Positions 19,281 to 33,507 of a stretch of 34,069 nt of DNA are shown piece after piece; the stretch's first letter is position 1; every line of letters starts with the position of its first letter. Source of the stretch: Thermoplasmata archaeon (GTDB lineage: Archaea > Thermoplasmatota > Thermoplasmata > Lutacidiplasmatales > UBA184); the NCBI GenBank assembly GCA_027315165.1, contig DAHUYN010000018.1, positions 1-34,069 on the forward strand, given 5' to 3'. The notes under the pieces were generated by a model. It had not been told where the DNA came from, did no database searches, and saw only the letters and a list, made by a program, of their open reading frames with translations. The position numbers and the translations under genes are program-made.

Positions 19281-19352
19281 TGGACACGGGGGGATTTGAA
19301 CCCCCGGCCTCTGCTTTGCGAAAGCAGCGATCTTCCGCTGATCTACGTGCCC
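19281..19352 (-). tRNA. tRNA-Ala (anticodon CGC)
   Basis: A 72-nt cloverleaf on the minus strand. Acceptor GGGCACG (19352-19346) pairs with CGTGTCC, with A as discriminator and no encoded CCA. The anticodon arm is CTGCT-TTCGCAA-AGCAG, so the anticodon is CGC. The T arm is GGGGG-TTCAAAT-CCCCC. No intron is present. A TATA-like GGCTTAAGG at 19378-19386 (minus) lies about 30 nt upstream. Confidence 0.95.
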
Positions 19353-22822: not shown

Positions 22823-22890
22823 TGTCTTCGCGGCGACCGGGCCGGCGGGCCGGGTCGTGCCGGGTCGTTCGGCCGTCCCGTCGGGCAACG

Positions 22891-22896
22891 TTTATC
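22891..22896 (+). promoter_or_regulatory. TATA box of the tRNA-Gln/tRNA-Leu pair
   Basis: CGTTTATCTG lies 27-32 nt before the 5' end of tRNA-Gln. No comparable element occurs in the 33-nt spacer before tRNA-Leu, so both tRNAs probably share this promoter. Confidence 0.6.
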
Positions 22897-22922
22897 TGCG
22901 GGCCCCCGCTGGCTTCGTCCGT

Positions 22923-23029
22923 AGCCCCGTAGTGTAGTGGCCAATCATGCGAGACTCTGGATCTCGCGACGCAGGTTCGAACGACTCGCGCGCCTCTCCG
23001 CGGCGAGCCCGAAACTCCTGCCGGGGCTA
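22923..23029 (+). tRNA. tRNA-Gln (anticodon CTG) with a T-loop intron
   Basis: Acceptor AGCCCCG (22923-22929) pairs perfectly with CGGGGCT (23022-23028); discriminator A at 23029, no CCA. The anticodon arm is CGAGA-CTCTGGA-TCTCG, anticodon CTG. The T stem GCAGG (22971-22975) pairs with CCTGC (23017-23021), but 41 nt lie between them instead of 7. Removing 22982-23015 leaves the canonical T loop TTCGAAT and a 73-nt tRNA. Confidence 0.92.
22982..23015 (+). other. 34-nt intron in the T loop of tRNA-Gln (position 59/60) with bulge-helix-bulge
   Basis: The outer helix is the T stem. The central 4-bp helix is TTCG (22976-22979) with CGAA (23010-23013). The 5' bulge is AAC (22980-22982), cut AA^C; the 3' bulge is ACT (23014-23016), cut AC^T. 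The inner helix contains CTCGC (22985-22989) with GCGAG (23003-23007). This is a complete hBHBh' substrate for archaeal tRNA-splicing endonuclease. Confidence 0.88.
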
Positions 23030-23086
23030 CTCTCTCTTGACGAGGCGTAGGTCTGTACCGATGCGGGGGTGCTCCAGCTCGGCCAA

Positions 23087-23113
23087 TCCGTCGGGACGTC
23101 CCGACGGGGCCAC
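23087..23113 (+). other. 27-nt intron in the D loop of tRNA-Leu(TAG) with bulge-helix-bulge
   Basis: The outer helix is CTC (23078-23080) with GAG (23115-23117). The central 4-bp helix is GGCC (23081-23084) with GGCC (23108-23111). The 5' bulge is AAT (cut AA^T) and the 3' bulge is ACC (cut AC^C). The inner helix is the perfect 20-nt palindrome at 23088-23107. Excision joins GGCCAA to CGAG and restores a 13-nt D loop. Confidence 0.85.
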
Positions 23114-23161
23114 CGAGACAGGGCTTAGGACCCTGGTGCCTAGGGCATTCGCCGGTTCAAA

Positions 23162-23193
23162 GGGCGGCCGCGGCGACCGCGGCCGCCGGAGAC
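23162..23193 (+). other. 32-nt intron in the T loop of tRNA-Leu(TAG) with relaxed bulge-helix-bulge
   Basis: The outer helix is the T stem. The central helix TTCA (23156-23159) faces GGAG (23188-23191) with one U-G pair and one A-G mismatch. The 5' bulge is AAG (cut AA^G) and the 3' bulge is ACT (cut AC^T). The inner helix is a perfect 11-bp stem (23163-23173 with 23177-23187) around a CGA loop. Excision yields TTCAAAT. Confidence 0.85.
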
Positions 23194-23224
23194 TCCGGCC
23201 CCCCGCATTCCCCCGCCCGATGAC

Positions 23225-30019: not shown

Positions 30020-31744
30020 CTACGGGTGGCCGAAGCAGGCCCGGACCGGCTCGACGCCGGGACGCGTGTCCGCCTCGAGCCGGACGAACCCGACGCGCTC
30101 GAACTGGAGGACCTCGCCGGGCGGTGACGAGAGAAGCGCTGCCTCCCCGAGGCCGGTCCGGTGCTCCCCCTCGACCCCGAGCAGGTCGACGGCGACGCCG
30201 TCGCGCGCGCTCACCCACTGGAGACGGGGGAGCCGCTTGTTCTCGAGGGAGGTGAACTCGGCCGTCGCGCTCGTGGCGCCGGTGTCGAGCCGGGCCGGCA
30301 GCCGGACGTTCACGAGGTCCTTGAGGCGCACCTCGCCCCCGAGATGGACCTCGAGGTCGCGGCGCGCGAGCCAGAGCGTGCTCCCTGCGGAGACCGCGCG
30401 CGTCCCGAGCTCCGGGCGGTCGGGGTGGTTCGGGAGCACGACCGACGCGAGCGAGGTCGGGTAGCCCGAGACCTCGAGCCGTACGGGGTCCTCGACGAAC
30501 GAGCGCCGGAGGGCCTTCGGGTCGATCAGGGTCCGGTTCTCGGCGTAGAGCGTCTCCGCCGGCACCTCGATGTCGGCGAGGGAGAGGCCGAAGGAGAGCG
30601 TGAAGTGCCGGAGGGCGCGCGGGTCGATCCCGCGTCGGTCGAGGGCCCGGAACGACCACGTCCTCGGGTCGGCCCAACCGTCGTAGACGCCGCTCTTGAC
30701 CTCCGCGTAGGACTTGCTCTTGGAGATCTTGGCCTCGCGCACCCGGAGGAGCCCCCAGTGCAGGAACGGGGGGCCCGTGACACCGAGGATCCGCCAGATC
30801 GCCTGCTGCATCCGATCCTCCATCACGAGGTCCTTGCCCCGCACGACGTGGGTCACTCCGAGCTCGATGTCGTCGACGGCCCAGGAGAACTCGAGGAGCG
30901 GCCAGACGCGATAGCGTCGGCCGACGCGAGGGTGGTCCAGGTCGCTGATGCGGAAGAGGACGCGGTCCCGGAACGCCGGGTCCGGGTCGCTGAGGTCGGT
31001 CCGCAGTCGAAGCACCGCCTCGCCCGGCCCGTAGCGGCCCCCGAGCATCCCCTCCCACGCCTCGAGCGTCGCCTCGGAGCCCTGGCTCCGCTCCGGGCAG
31101 GGGCGGCCCTCCGCCCGATTCCGCCGAAGGAGCTCGGCCGGGCAGGTGCAGACGTAGGCGGCGTGGGCCTCGATGACGCGTCGCGCCCACGGGTAGTGGT
31201 TCGGGATCAGGTCGGACTTGTAGTAGACCGCATCCGGAGCCGCGCCGCAGAGCTCGAGGTCCTCCCGGATCAGGTCGAACATCTCGGGGTCGAGCCGCTT
31301 TTCCTCCGAGCCGACCGTATCGTCGAAGACGAGGAGGAGCCGTCCGTCGTACCGACGTCGGTAGTAGTCGTTGACGAAGATCATCCGACCGTTGCCGATG
31401 TGGAGCGCGCCCGAGGGGAACGGGGCCATCCGCAGCACGACCTTGCCGGGAACGGCGCCGGGGAGCTCGGGGAACTCGCCCGTCTCGCTCCGCGGTCGGG
31501 GAGCGCGATCGGCCTCGGCGCCCCCGAGGGCGGCGAGCGCGCCTACCTGCGCCTCGGCCGTGAGCCGGACGACCTCCTCGACGACGCGCGCGACGATCGG
31601 GCGGAGCTCCGACGCGCGGCTCCTCAGCTCGGGAGAGGTCGCGAGAAGCCGGGCGAGCACGGGGCCGGCCTGCGCCGTCCCCTCGTGTTCGACGGCGTTC
31701 TGGAGGGCGAGGCGGCGGGCCCTCTGCTCGACCGCATCGTCCAT
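30020..31744 (-). CDS. gltX: Glutamyl-tRNA synthetase (archaeal type)
   Basis: A 574-aa class Ib synthetase that charges tRNA(Glu), and in most archaea also tRNA(Gln) for later amidation. The HIGH motif is GALHIGNG (HIGN at 115-118) and the KMSKS motif is KISKS at 339-343. The N-terminal about 95 helical residues and the all-beta C-terminal anticodon-binding region are of archaeal/GlnRS type, not the bacterial helical cage. FDDTVGSEEKR and VWPLLEFSWAVDDIELGVTHVVRGKDL lie in the catalytic domain. The ATG at 31744 lies about 25 nt after CTCTTAAGCGG (minus), supporting a leaderless start over the GTG at 31756. The product also supplies the substrate for the hemA pathway. Confidence 0.93.
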   Translation of the reverse strand: MDDAVEQRARRLALQNAVEHEGTAQAGPVLARLLATSPELRSRASELRPIVARVVEEVVRLTAEAQVGALAALGGAEADRAPRPRSETGEFPELPGAVPGKVVLRMAPFPSGALHIGNGRMIFVNDYYRRRYDGRLLLVFDDTVGSEEKRLDPEMFDLIREDLELCGAAPDAVYYKSDLIPNHYPWARRVIEAHAAYVCTCPAELLRRNRAEGRPCPERSQGSEATLEAWEGMLGGRYGPGEAVLRLRTDLSDPDPAFRDRVLFRISDLDHPRVGRRYRVWPLLEFSWAVDDIELGVTHVVRGKDLVMEDRMQQAIWRILGVTGPPFLHWGLLRVREAKISKSKSYAEVKSGVYDGWADPRTWSFRALDRRGIDPRALRHFTLSFGLSLADIEVPAETLYAENRTLIDPKALRRSFVEDPVRLEVSGYPTSLASVVLPNHPDRPELGTRAVSAGSTLWLARRDLEVHLGGEVRLKDLVNVRLPARLDTGATSATAEFTSLENKRLPRLQWVSARDGVAVDLLGVEGEHRTGLGEAALLSSPPGEVLQFERVGFVRLEADTRPGVEPVRACFGHP

Positions 31745-31768
31745 CGGCCGGCCCACGGGGGGCGCCGC

Positions 31769-32581
31769 TTAAGAGCGTTCGGCCGCGGCGGCGTCGGGCG
31801 CGTGGCGGCCTCGGGGCCTCGTGTAGCGGCGCTCTCCGTCGGCGAGCGCCTCGCTCAAGGTGAGCTCACCCCTGAGGACGTCCTCGGCGACCCGACGGGG
31901 GATCGTGAAGAGCCCCCCGCTCCCCTCCCGACTCACCCGCTGGAGGTTCGCAACCTCGCCCGGCGTGATGTGGAGGGGCGCACGTTGATGGATGGAGCGA
32001 CCGGGGGTCCGCGCGATCGCCCGCGCCGCGAGCGCGTCGCGGGGACGTCGCGTCCCTCTCGGGGTCGTCCCCTGCTCGTCGACGAGCTCGATCGGACGCC
32101 GCGCCGGGAGCAGCGCGTTGACGATGCGGTCTCGAGCGAGCCGGTCGCCCCGTCCGACCCGGAAGCGGATGCCGCGCGAGGCGAACCGTCGTCTCAGGTG
32201 CGTCGCGAGCCGGCCGACGGCCTCGGGGGAGTCGAGGTTCCCCTCGGCGAGCGTCAGTTCCCCCTCGAGGACCGCGTAGCCGGGCCTCGGGCCCGGGTCG
32301 ATCCCGACGATGAGCTCGCCGCGGGTCGGCTGGGCCGCGAGCGCGCTCGCGACCTCGGCCCACACCCCGGTCCGGTCCCCTTCGCTCGGGACCACGACGA
32401 CGTGCTCGTGCGAGATCTCTCTCGCCTCGGCCTCGCTCGTGAGCACGGCGGCGACGCTGTCGGGGAGCCGTTCGCCCGGCAGGAGGCTGACCGAAGGAAG
32501 CCGCCGCTCGCGAAGGACGGCGGCGAGCTCCGCATAGAGCAGCGGGTCCCGCGTCGCCAAGGCTACCGAGCGCCGTCTCAA
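31769..32581 (-). CDS. RNase H-fold (RuvC/DUF460-like) archaeal protein
   Basis: A 270-aa protein. Residues 90-175 show an RNase-H-like core: LIVGIDPGPRPGYAVLEG with the first acidic residue, a second strand, an Arg-rich helix and IVNALL. GIDPG starts RuvC-like and DUF460-type nuclease folds. The N-terminal about 85 residues form a small alpha/beta domain (VALATRDPLLYAELAAVLRERRLPSV), like the DNA-metabolism-linked archaeal proteins of this type. The C-terminal part (THITPGEVANLQ-like, then GELTLSEALADGERRY) is helical. Nuclease activity is not proven. The TTG at 32581 is chosen because a TATA-like element lies about 26 nt upstream (leaderless). Confidence 0.6.
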   Translation of the reverse strand: MRRRSVALATRDPLLYAELAAVLRERRLPSVSLLPGERLPDSVAAVLTSEAEAREISHEHVVVVPSEGDRTGVWAEVASALAAQPTRGELIVGIDPGPRPGYAVLEGELTLAEGNLDSPEAVGRLATHLRRRFASRGIRFRVGRGDRLARDRIVNALLPARRPIELVDEQGTTPRGTRRPRDALAARAIARTPGRSIHQRAPLHITPGEVANLQRVSREGSGGLFTIPRRVAEDVLRGELTLSEALADGERRYTRPRGRHAPDAAAAERS

Positions 32582-32596
32582 CGGCGGCGAAGACGG

Positions 32597-32614
32597 TCAT
32601 ATAGCGCATATAGT
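32597..32614. promoter_or_regulatory. Back-to-back TATA boxes for divergent leaderless genes
   Basis: TCATATAGCGCATATAGT holds two CATATAG copies in tandem. The left copy (about 32598-32604) is about 25 nt before the plus-strand GTG at 32625. The right copy (about 32607-32613) read on the minus strand is about 26 nt before the TTG at 32581. Each fits archaeal TATA-to-start spacing. Confidence 0.6.
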
Positions 32615-32624
32615 TTGCCGGGGC

Positions 32625-32999
32625 GTGATCGTCTGCCCGCGTTGCGGGGCCGTCGCCGCGCCGGGCGCGCTGTTCTGCTCTCGCTGCGGCGCGACGGTGC
32701 CGCAGGGAGAGCCGGCGGATCTCGCGAACGCACCGCTGTCGAGCTCCGGGGCCGTCGTGTCGGCCCCGCCACCGCCACGGTACGCCCCGGTCCCGCCCCC
32801 CGTGTTCCCGACCCCCCCTCCACCGCCGGTCGCCGCCGGTCCTCCCCCGCCGGAGTGGATCCCAGAGCCACTCCGGGGACGCGCGGTGCACTGCCCTCGA
32901 TGCAACACGCTGATATCGCGACGGGCGGTCTCCTGCCCGGCATGTCTCGCCCCGCTCCCCCCGGCCGTCGCGGCCGCCGTGGACGACGCACCGGCCTGA
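32625..32999 (+). CDS. Double zinc-ribbon protein with proline-rich linker
   Basis: A 124-aa product from the GTG at 32625. The first zinc ribbon is VCPRCGAVAAPGALFCSRCGA (residues 3-23). A Pro-rich linker of about 60 residues (PPPPRYAPVPPPVFPTPPPPP) separates it from a second ribbon, HCPRCNTLISRRAVSCPACLA (about 89-109). No enzymatic domain is seen. The stop TGA overlaps the RNase P gene start as TGATG, so the two are coupled. A role in RNA or protein binding near RNase P is possible by position only. Confidence 0.75.
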   Translation: MIVCPRCGAVAAPGALFCSRCGATVPQGEPADLANAPLSSSGAVVSAPPPPRYAPVPPPVFPTPPPPPVAAGPPPPEWIPEPLRGRAVHCPRCNTLISRRAVSCPACLAPLPPAVAAAVDDAPA

Positions 33000-33400
33000 T
33001 GGTCCGGGTCGCTCGAGAGCGGATCGACGACCTGTTCGGCGTCGCCGCGCTCGAGGGCCATGCGGGCGAGACCGCAGTCGCCGACCGGTGCGTTCGCCTA
33101 GCGCGGCGCATCGGCATGCGCTACAACGTGCGGCTGCTCCGAGAGTATCAGGACCTCTACTGCCGGGGCTGCTCTGCCTACTGGGTCGAGGGACGCAGCG
33201 TTCGGACCCGGCTTCGAGGCGGTCACCGCGCGAGGACGTGCCTGCGGTGCGGCCGCACGCGCCGCGTGCCGCTCCGGTCGCGCAGCCCGCCCCCGGCCCT
33301 AGGCCCCGAGGGGGTGGCGACGGGTACGTTCGAGGCGGTCGGCTTCGCCGAGGAGCCCGTCGCGGGCGACGAGCTCAGCGACGAAGGCGAAGACGAATAA
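32999..33400 (+). CDS. rnp4: Ribonuclease P protein component 4 (Rpp21/Rpr2)
   Basis: A 133-aa subunit of archaeal RNase P, which trims the 5' leader of pre-tRNAs. The helical N-terminus (ARERIDDLFGVAA...CVRLARRIGMRYNVRL) precedes the zinc ribbon CRGCSAYWVEG...TCLRCGRTRRVPL, the Rpr2/Rpp21 signature. The C-terminal about 35 residues are an acidic tail. The ATG at 32999 overlaps the upstream stop by one base. tRNA-Leu(CAA) begins 25 nt after the stop. Confidence 0.9.
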   Translation: MVRVARERIDDLFGVAALEGHAGETAVADRCVRLARRIGMRYNVRLLREYQDLYCRGCSAYWVEGRSVRTRLRGGHRARTCLRCGRTRRVPLRSRSPPPALGPEGVATGTFEAVGFAEEPVAGDELSDEGEDE

Positions 33401-33424: not shown

Positions 33425-33507
33425 GCCGGGGTGGCCGAGCGGCCAAAGGCGGCAGACTCAAGATCTGCTCTCGCAGGAGTTCCCAGGTTCGAATCCTGGC
33501 CCCGGCA
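33425..33507 (+). tRNA. tRNA-Leu (anticodon CAA)
   Basis: An 83-nt class II cloverleaf. Acceptor GCCGGGG pairs with CCCCGGC; discriminator A, no CCA. The anticodon arm is GCAGA-CTCAAGA-TCTGC. There is a long variable arm. The T arm is CCAGG-TTCGAAT-CCTGG. No intron is present, in contrast to tRNA-Leu(TAG) in the same window. Confidence 0.95.

Follow-up and report, generated by a model that had tools for sequence, protein, structure and literature searches.

Introduction

Non-canonical introns in archaeal tRNA genes have been described in Crenarchaeota, Thaumarchaeota, Nanoarchaeum, Korarchaeum, ARMAN and a few euryarchaeal methanogens, the groups named in the available portions of PMC4033280, PMC3218864 and PMC8450103 (these and all other papers are cited here for parts of their texts). 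Here we describe a tRNA-Leu(TAG) gene interrupted by two such introns, one in the D loop and one in the T loop, in a 34,069-nt stretch of DNA, hereafter the window, from a Thermoplasmata archaeon (assembly GCA_027315165.1, contig DAHUYN010000018.1). The source is a metagenome-assembled genome (MAG) of 94% completeness, and belongs to a genus that includes MAGs of Lutacidiplasmatales, an order placed in Thermoplasmatota by NCBI. BHB (bulge-helix-bulge) introns in tRNA genes are a known kind of feature, of which this is a new, lineage-wide case. The initial annotation of the window, made from its letters alone, had called the gene unusual for Thermoplasmatota, and indeed this phylum is absent from the groups named above. 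A literature search did not find tRNA introns of Lutacidiplasmatales in print, and the word 'intron' occurs 0 times in the main text of the paper on the order (PMC9287336).

Under the model of co-evolution between the splicing endonuclease EndA and its introns, non-canonical or multiple introns go with enzymes that are (alpha-beta)2, epsilon2 or loop-bearing. Efficient excision of introns with relaxed motifs is ascribed solely to the (alpha-beta)2 and epsilon2 types, alpha'2 enzymes being listed as narrow (PMC6379350), and the missing loop of the type found in ARMAN (ASL) may restrict alpha'2 enzymes to the canonical BHB (PMC12397907). Thermoproteales (Sugahara 2008 and Fujishima 2010, via PMC4033280 and PMC8450103) resemble the present genome in having short non-canonical BHB introns, at least two per tRNA, in many tRNAs per genome, but here EndA is predicted to be of the alpha'2 type and no intron transposition was seen in the one genome compared. 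ARMAN-1 and ARMAN-2 (PMC6379350, PMC4033280, PMC12397907) likewise carry multiple introns at various positions outside Crenarchaeota, but with a three-unit epsilon2 EndA bearing the ASL, whereas the enzyme here has two repeats. As of 2014, Korarchaeum cryptofilum was the only archaeon with an alpha2 endonuclease and non-canonical introns (PMC4033280); the present genome also combines a homodimer-type EndA with such introns, although its EndA, unlike that of Korarchaeum, lacks the insert. EndA of Methanopyrus kandleri (5X89), like the enzyme here, has neither the Crenarchaea-type loop (CSL) nor the ASL in a genome with non-canonical introns; it differs in being (alpha-beta)2, 'constrained broad' in the table of PMC6379350, while here one chain holds two repeats, and it cuts a relaxed motif slightly (PMC6379350). 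The alpha'2 EndA of Archaeoglobus fulgidus (1RLV/2GJW) shares the two-repeat architecture and is classed 'Narrow', in contrast to the 17 non-canonical introns of the one genome studied here, although with full-length pre-tRNA as substrate it can excise an intron at 37/38 that has a bulge-helix-loop motif; that of Thermoplasma acidophilum (2OHC) is of the same alpha'2 type (PMC6379350).

An order described from acidic soils with a plain alpha'2 EndA and many such introns is a good test of the co-evolution model. Natural intron loss and intron-free relatives are available for comparison, and the introns are ready substrates for examining the central-helix requirement.

Two introns in the tRNA-Leu(TAG) gene

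At its gathering score Rfam did not report the unspliced tRNA-Leu(TAG) gene in the window, nor did ARAGORN; together the two programs reported only tRNA-Ala(CGC) (19281-19352, minus strand) and tRNA-Leu(CAA) (33425-33507, plus strand). ARAGORN called a tRNA-Leu(tag) only when the D-loop and T-loop segments listed in Table 1 were both deleted, whereas the unspliced form and the forms lacking either segment alone gave nothing. The spliced product is an 86-nt class II tRNA. The initial annotation had found the gene unreadable as a tRNA until these two segments were removed, and its coordinates, intron lengths of 27 and 32 nt, cuts, hairpins and product length all check out. As a control, random pairs of deletions of the same two sizes were made, and 132 of 4998 likewise yielded a tRNA; the 30 of these that were printed were Leu(tag), with T-side offsets of 95-101 (true offset, 99). 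Because such deletions also pass, ARAGORN alone cannot set the intron boundaries. These are fixed by relatives, in which the D-loop segment is exactly absent from two loci and intron-free tRNA-Leu(TAG) genes of a sister genus and of another family read straight through both junctions.

Table 1 Features of the tRNA-Gln(CTG) and tRNA-Leu(TAG) region, in window positions
Feature	Position	Strand	Description	Basis
tRNA-Leu(TAG) gene, 145 nt	23063..23207	+	exons 23063-23086, 23114-23161, 23194-23207	ARAGORN on spliced form; 67 orthologous loci in 65 same-genus genomes
D-loop intron, 27 nt	23087..23113	+	between tRNA positions 21/22 (hand numbering)	precise absence in 2/67 same-genus loci; compensatory pairing
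T-loop intron, 32 nt	23162..23193	+	between tRNA positions 59/60 (hand numbering)	present in 67/67 same-genus loci; absent from Leu(TAG) of genera g24, g26, g27
Strict BHB of D-loop intron	23078..23117	+	outer helix 23078-23080/23115-23117; central 4-bp helix 23081-23084/23108-23111; bulges 23085-23087, 23112-23114; inner hairpin 23088-23095/23100-23107	
BHB-like motif of T-loop intron	23151..23199	+	T stem 23151-23155/23195-23199; central TTC 23156-23158 with 23189-23191; A57 (23159) opposite G (23188); inner hairpin 23163-23173/23177-23187, which shows covariation	
tRNA-Gln(CTG) gene	22923..23029	+	T-loop intron 22982-23015 (34 nt, 4-bp central helix)	ARAGORN after splicing
TATA-like box	22887..22897	+	AACGTTTATCT, about 32 nt upstream of tRNA-Gln; TTTAT-like, conserved	column counts over 61 upstream regions

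The D-loop intron lies in a strict 3-4-3 motif, with outer helix CTC/GAG, central helix GGCC/GGCC, bulges AA^T and AC^C, and an 8-bp inner hairpin. At the T-loop intron, TTC may pair with purine-rich letters to extend the T stem GCCGG/CCGGC by a 3-bp central helix; the bulges here are AA^G and AC^T, and the inner hairpin has 11 bp.

Conservation and compensatory pairing within the genus

The gene was searched for in 78 genomes of the genus, including the source genome. Some match was found in 69, with 67 full-gene loci in 65 genomes; 9 of the rest had no match and 4 had weak partial matches only. The genes at 65 of the 67 loci were parsed by pattern, and those at L177 and L192, read by eye, carry both introns. 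ARAGORN called all 65 parsed genes Leu(tag) when spliced, and called a tRNA in only 1 of 65 when unspliced. Both introns are kept at 65 of the 67 loci and the T-loop intron is lost at none, while the D-loop intron is missing exactly between ...GGCCAA and CGAG... at L201 (genome G023) and L202 (genome G067). The latter two genomes are sisters in the EndA tree (support 100/100).

The exons show a mean pairwise identity of 98.2%, against which the hairpin of the D-loop intron reaches 51.8% (27-nt class) and that of the T-loop intron 58.1% (equal-length pairs). Analysis of covariation in 30 genes of one length class counted 72 cells changed on both sides of a pair versus 30.8 in shuffled data, and in 18 genes of another length class 70 versus 27.5, with 0 of 500 shuffles reaching the observed value in either set; these cells count sequences rather than events and are inflated by relatedness, and slid structures give 17-40 (30 genes) and 13-25 (18 genes). 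Run unprompted on the 18 genes, RNAalifold recovered the D-loop BHB and the T-loop hairpin and left the 3-bp T helix open. The unspliced RNA of the gene folds at -94 kcal/mol, compared with -73.0 (standard deviation 4.5) for 200 shuffles, which is 4.7 standard deviations lower.

A BHB with 3-nt bulges had been annotated at both introns. This stands for the D loop, where the 4-bp central helix can pair in 62 of 63 parsed genes with bulges AA^N and NN^C. In the T loop 3-nt bulges are possible, but the central helix is limited to the 3 bp of TTC/GRR, followed by an A57.G mismatch, at 65 of 65 parsed loci. We conclude that the tRNA-Leu(TAG) gene with two introns of BHB type is real and, in its predicted mechanism, ordinary.

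No second tRNA-Leu(TAG) was found in the 94% complete source genome, and thus no intact, intron-free copy, which the initial annotation had named as grounds for refutation. Two different tRNA-Leu(TAG) loci occur in each of two other MAGs, G024 (contigs C108 and C163) and G079 (contigs C94 and C116); G079 is listed with 8% contamination, and these are perhaps mixed bins.

Introns of tRNA-Leu(TAG) outside the genus and their possible gain and loss

The spliced tRNA-Leu(TAG) was searched for in 20 chosen genomes and the gene was read in 12, including G040, where it was read by eye from the centre of the match; from the remaining 8 came different Leu tRNAs or incomplete matches. Both introns are present in genus g25 (G111, G182), and only the D-loop intron in g26 (G133) and g27 (G164). 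Neither is present in g24 (G102, G119, G177), in G037 and G039 from another family of the same order, or in G054 and G040 from the same class. G038 represents a third family of the order, and its gene carries a T-loop insert of 13 nt. The EndA tree groups g24 with g26 and g27 (96/92), and g25 with g1 (96/94). The tree covers a single gene in 22 sequences (G136 was left out, the motif search having missed its frame), and 10 of its 19 inner branches are drawn open. Its grouping suggests that the D-loop intron was lost two or more times and that the T-loop intron of the Leu gene was gained later.

The splicing machinery

PF01974 matched the source genome twice in one frame, corresponding to a single EndA. 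There was no other match at an E-value of 0.001 in the 94% complete genome, and neither a separate beta subunit nor a third unit was found. Of 61 genomes searched, 55 had PF01974 matches, and completeness is 59-78% in the six that lacked one. Thirty of 36 other same-genus genomes had matches, two at most, with the exception of G011, whose third match is in a frame of 111 aa close to the start of a contig. The EndA of the source genome, 353 aa from the chosen start, aligns over residues 25-334 with that of A. fulgidus (1r0v/2gjw), and its best PDB match by E-value is 5x89, in three stretches. It is 67% identical to EndA of Candidatus Lutacidiplasma silvani. Residues Y284, H299 and K330, which we take to be catalytic, lie in the C-terminal repeat and are invariant in 20 sequences. 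Judged from its sequence, the enzyme is of the alpha'2 type, with two catalytic-domain repeats in one chain; the initial annotation had proposed to classify the EndA subunits, and the sole EndA found falls in this class.

A 10-residue insert, with a lysine counting to position 44, is present in chain 3ajv_B from A. pernix at a loop where the N-terminal repeat of the present enzyme has none, and alignment of its catalytic C-terminal repeat to 1A79 from M. jannaschii revealed no insert at that loop. A loop-bearing EndA was rejected on the basis of these two alignments. By sequence alignment the enzyme thus has no CSL-type insert; the ARMAN loop was not aligned directly. The genome contains one RtcB gene.

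Non-canonical introns across the genome and the order

The tRNA inventory of the source genome was compiled from Rfam matches, a T-loop intron model and reading of fetched stretches. It comprises 42 genes, of which 23 are intron-free, 4 have an anticodon-loop intron (a CAT gene, Tyr, Leu(TAA) and Trp, assigned by eye) and 15 carry a total of 17 non-canonical introns. The Rfam tRNA model scored above its cut-off for 33 of the 42, a warning that tRNAs of such MAGs are overlooked when a search does not model introns. The expected tRNAs Ala(GGC), Pro(GGG), Pro(TGG) and Val(GAC) were not found in this 94% complete MAG.

Thirteen of the non-canonical introns lie in the T loop, in Gln(CTG), Leu(TAG), Ser(GCT), Ser(CGA), Ser(GGA), Arg(TCT), Arg(TCG), Glu(CTC), His(GTG), Gly(TCC), Asn(GTT), Asp(GTC) and Lys(TTT); site 59/60 is dominant and shared by these 13 different tRNAs. 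They are enclosed by a 5-bp T stem that is closed by a 7-bp acceptor stem. The other four are D-loop introns, in Leu(TAG), Lys(TTT), one CAT gene and Arg(GCG). All 15 genes were read by ARAGORN when spliced, although for T-loop introns this is no clean test, since Arg(TCT), Glu(CTC) and Gly(TCC) were read unspliced too. The central helix of the T-loop introns is fully paired in 5 of 13 (Gln, His, Lys, Arg(TCG) and Gly) and mismatched at position 57 in 8, including Leu(TAG). These eight helices, of 3 bp and a mismatch, do not fit the strict motif attributed to alpha'2 enzymes in the literature. A rule that A57 always faces G was considered and dropped: the opposite letter is U in His, A in Ser(GGA) and C in Asn, and in Asp G57 faces G.

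A second gene of the genome combines D-loop and T-loop introns, tRNA-Lys(TTT) at locus L293 (G000:C1:10050-10400, reverse strand), with a D-loop intron of 30 nt (central helix of 5 bp by eye) and a T-loop intron of 35 nt. The D-loop insert of tRNA-Arg(GCG) lies 5' of G18-G19 in a similar place in two families (L291 in G000, reverse strand; L348 in G038, forward strand), and some introns may therefore be old.

When the T-loop model (R1) was run on the source genome, 150 of 10548 candidates were scored and 8 of the 13 T-loop introns were listed, Arg(TCG), Gly(TCC), Asn, Asp and Lys being missed. Among 120 genomes of the class with at least 80% completeness, 20 gave matches, including two further families; at most 53 candidates were scored per genome, under stricter filters, and absence in the other 100 is weak evidence. 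Among these matches, one Lys tRNA was seen by eye to combine an insert in its anticodon loop with a T-loop intron. Non-canonical tRNA introns are common in the order and not an oddity of a single gene.

In G038, a member of the same order predicted to have an alpha'2 EndA, T-loop introns of 13-14 nt occur in Asn, two Arg and two Leu tRNAs, with a fully paired central helix and no inner hairpin, and a Ser tRNA has one of 15 nt with one helix mismatch, also lacking an inner hairpin. At L343, L345, L349, L267 and L350 of this genome the helix is TTCA/TGAA, with one mismatch in L350. Its tRNA-Leu(TAA) gene (L288, reverse strand) has three introns, in the D loop (22 nt), at 37/38 (14 nt) and in the T loop (13 nt), and was called by ARAGORN only after all three were removed; removal of none, one or two, as tried, failed.

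Interpretation and alternative explanations

The data point to a working tRNA-Leu(TAG) whose precursor, co-transcribed with a neighbouring tRNA-Gln(CTG), would contain two archaeal BHB introns to be spliced by the alpha'2 EndA and RtcB, a reading to which we assign a probability of about 0.93. Both tRNAs would be transcribed from one promoter. From the genes present and known archaeal chemistry, EndA would be expected to cut both motifs behind the second nucleotide of the bulge, and RtcB to join the exons into the 86-nt tRNA. Removal of the D-loop intron would require no relaxed enzyme, while the T-loop intron, with a central helix of at most 3 bp and its A57.G mismatch, would require more tolerance than the strict motif does. 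The gene had initially been taken to imply an endonuclease of relaxed specificity, which is too broad in view of the strict D-loop motif and an alpha'2 EndA without the Crenarchaea-type insert; the T-loop helix alone hints at relaxation.

Several points weigh against the reading of a working, spliced gene. We infer both cleavage and ligation from DNA, a second EndA subunit could be absent from a MAG that is 94% complete, and alpha'2 enzymes are called narrow in PMC6379350, PMC12397907 and PMC4033280. In the best fold of the gene itself CTCGG pairs with CCGAG, leaving a 4x4 internal loop in the D region; the D-loop BHB register is less stable by 1.6 kcal/mol, and its pairs have probabilities of 0.13-0.16. 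Among the best single folds of 63 genes, 29 contain the D central helix (mean probability 0.55), that of the present gene not being one of them, and 0 contain the 3-bp T helix (mean probability 0.009). As single-sequence folds do not favour the motifs, both rest on comparison rather than on folding energy.

That the locus is instead a decayed pseudogene or tRNA-like remnant with palindromic insertions would explain why ARAGORN and Rfam fail to read it, but its exons are near-invariant over 67 loci in 65 genomes, its inserts show compensatory pairing, and no other tRNA-Leu(TAG) was found in the genome; this explanation was rejected on account of the exon conservation and is extremely improbable. 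A dominant site (59/60) in 13 different tRNAs could reflect transposition of introns from one tRNA gene to another, which has been reported in Thermoproteales. Within the source genome, however, the 13 T-loop intron cores resemble one another no more than shuffled sequences do (mean score 13.0 versus 13.2), and the score of the best pair was matched in 38 of 200 shuffles. Transposition was set aside for this lack of excess similarity, and seems improbable.

It is also conceivable, though rather unlikely, that the EndA of the order acquired a broad specificity in a way that involves neither the known CSL nor the ASL, and that this allowed the introns to spread. The mismatch at the fourth central-helix pair in 8 of 13 T-loop introns would fit this idea, as would the little stability that folding gives to the T helix, and the T-loop introns of 13-15 nt without hairpins (Asn, two Arg, Ser and two Leu) and the three-intron tRNA-Leu(TAA) of G038. 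The Leu D-loop motif is strict, however, and 5 of 13 T-loop motifs are fully paired; moreover, the A. fulgidus alpha'2 EndA is reported to excise a bulge-helix-loop intron and the loopless EndA of M. kandleri to cut a relaxed motif slightly (PMC6379350), so that a new property may be unneeded. Returning to the tRNA-Leu(TAG) gene and the plain EndA, we suggest, tentatively and at somewhat less than even odds, that an alpha'2 enzyme lacking every known specificity loop processes a tRNA set in which non-canonical introns predominate, among them T-loop motifs of 3 bp and a mismatch, and in a same-order relative introns of 13-15 nt lacking a helix of their own and a three-intron tRNA. If so, either the rule that loop-bearing EndAs alone permit such introns is wrong, or the alpha'2 enzymes of the order have been relaxed by a new route.

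Neighbouring genes

The tRNA-Gln(CTG) gene starts 140 nt upstream of tRNA-Leu(TAG), and was missed by ARAGORN in its unspliced form, by Rfam at the gathering score and by the initial annotation. A pattern for it matched upstream of tRNA-Leu(TAG) at 62 of 67 loci, over 106 nt each as matched, and the distance to the Leu gene is 28-37 nt in the 60 measured. At the 5 loci without a match, two (L146, L205) have a contig that stops near the Leu gene. Opposite G57, all 62 T-loop introns of the Gln genes have a C. The TATA-like box is likely the promoter of the pair, and its conservation, together with the adjacency of the two genes, suggests that Gln and Leu probably form a single transcription unit. 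Elsewhere in the window, an open reading frame at 30161-33400 (plus strand), whose C-terminal part matches the RNase P subunit Rpr2 (PF04032) and which would thus act in tRNA processing, lies 24 bases before tRNA-Leu(CAA).
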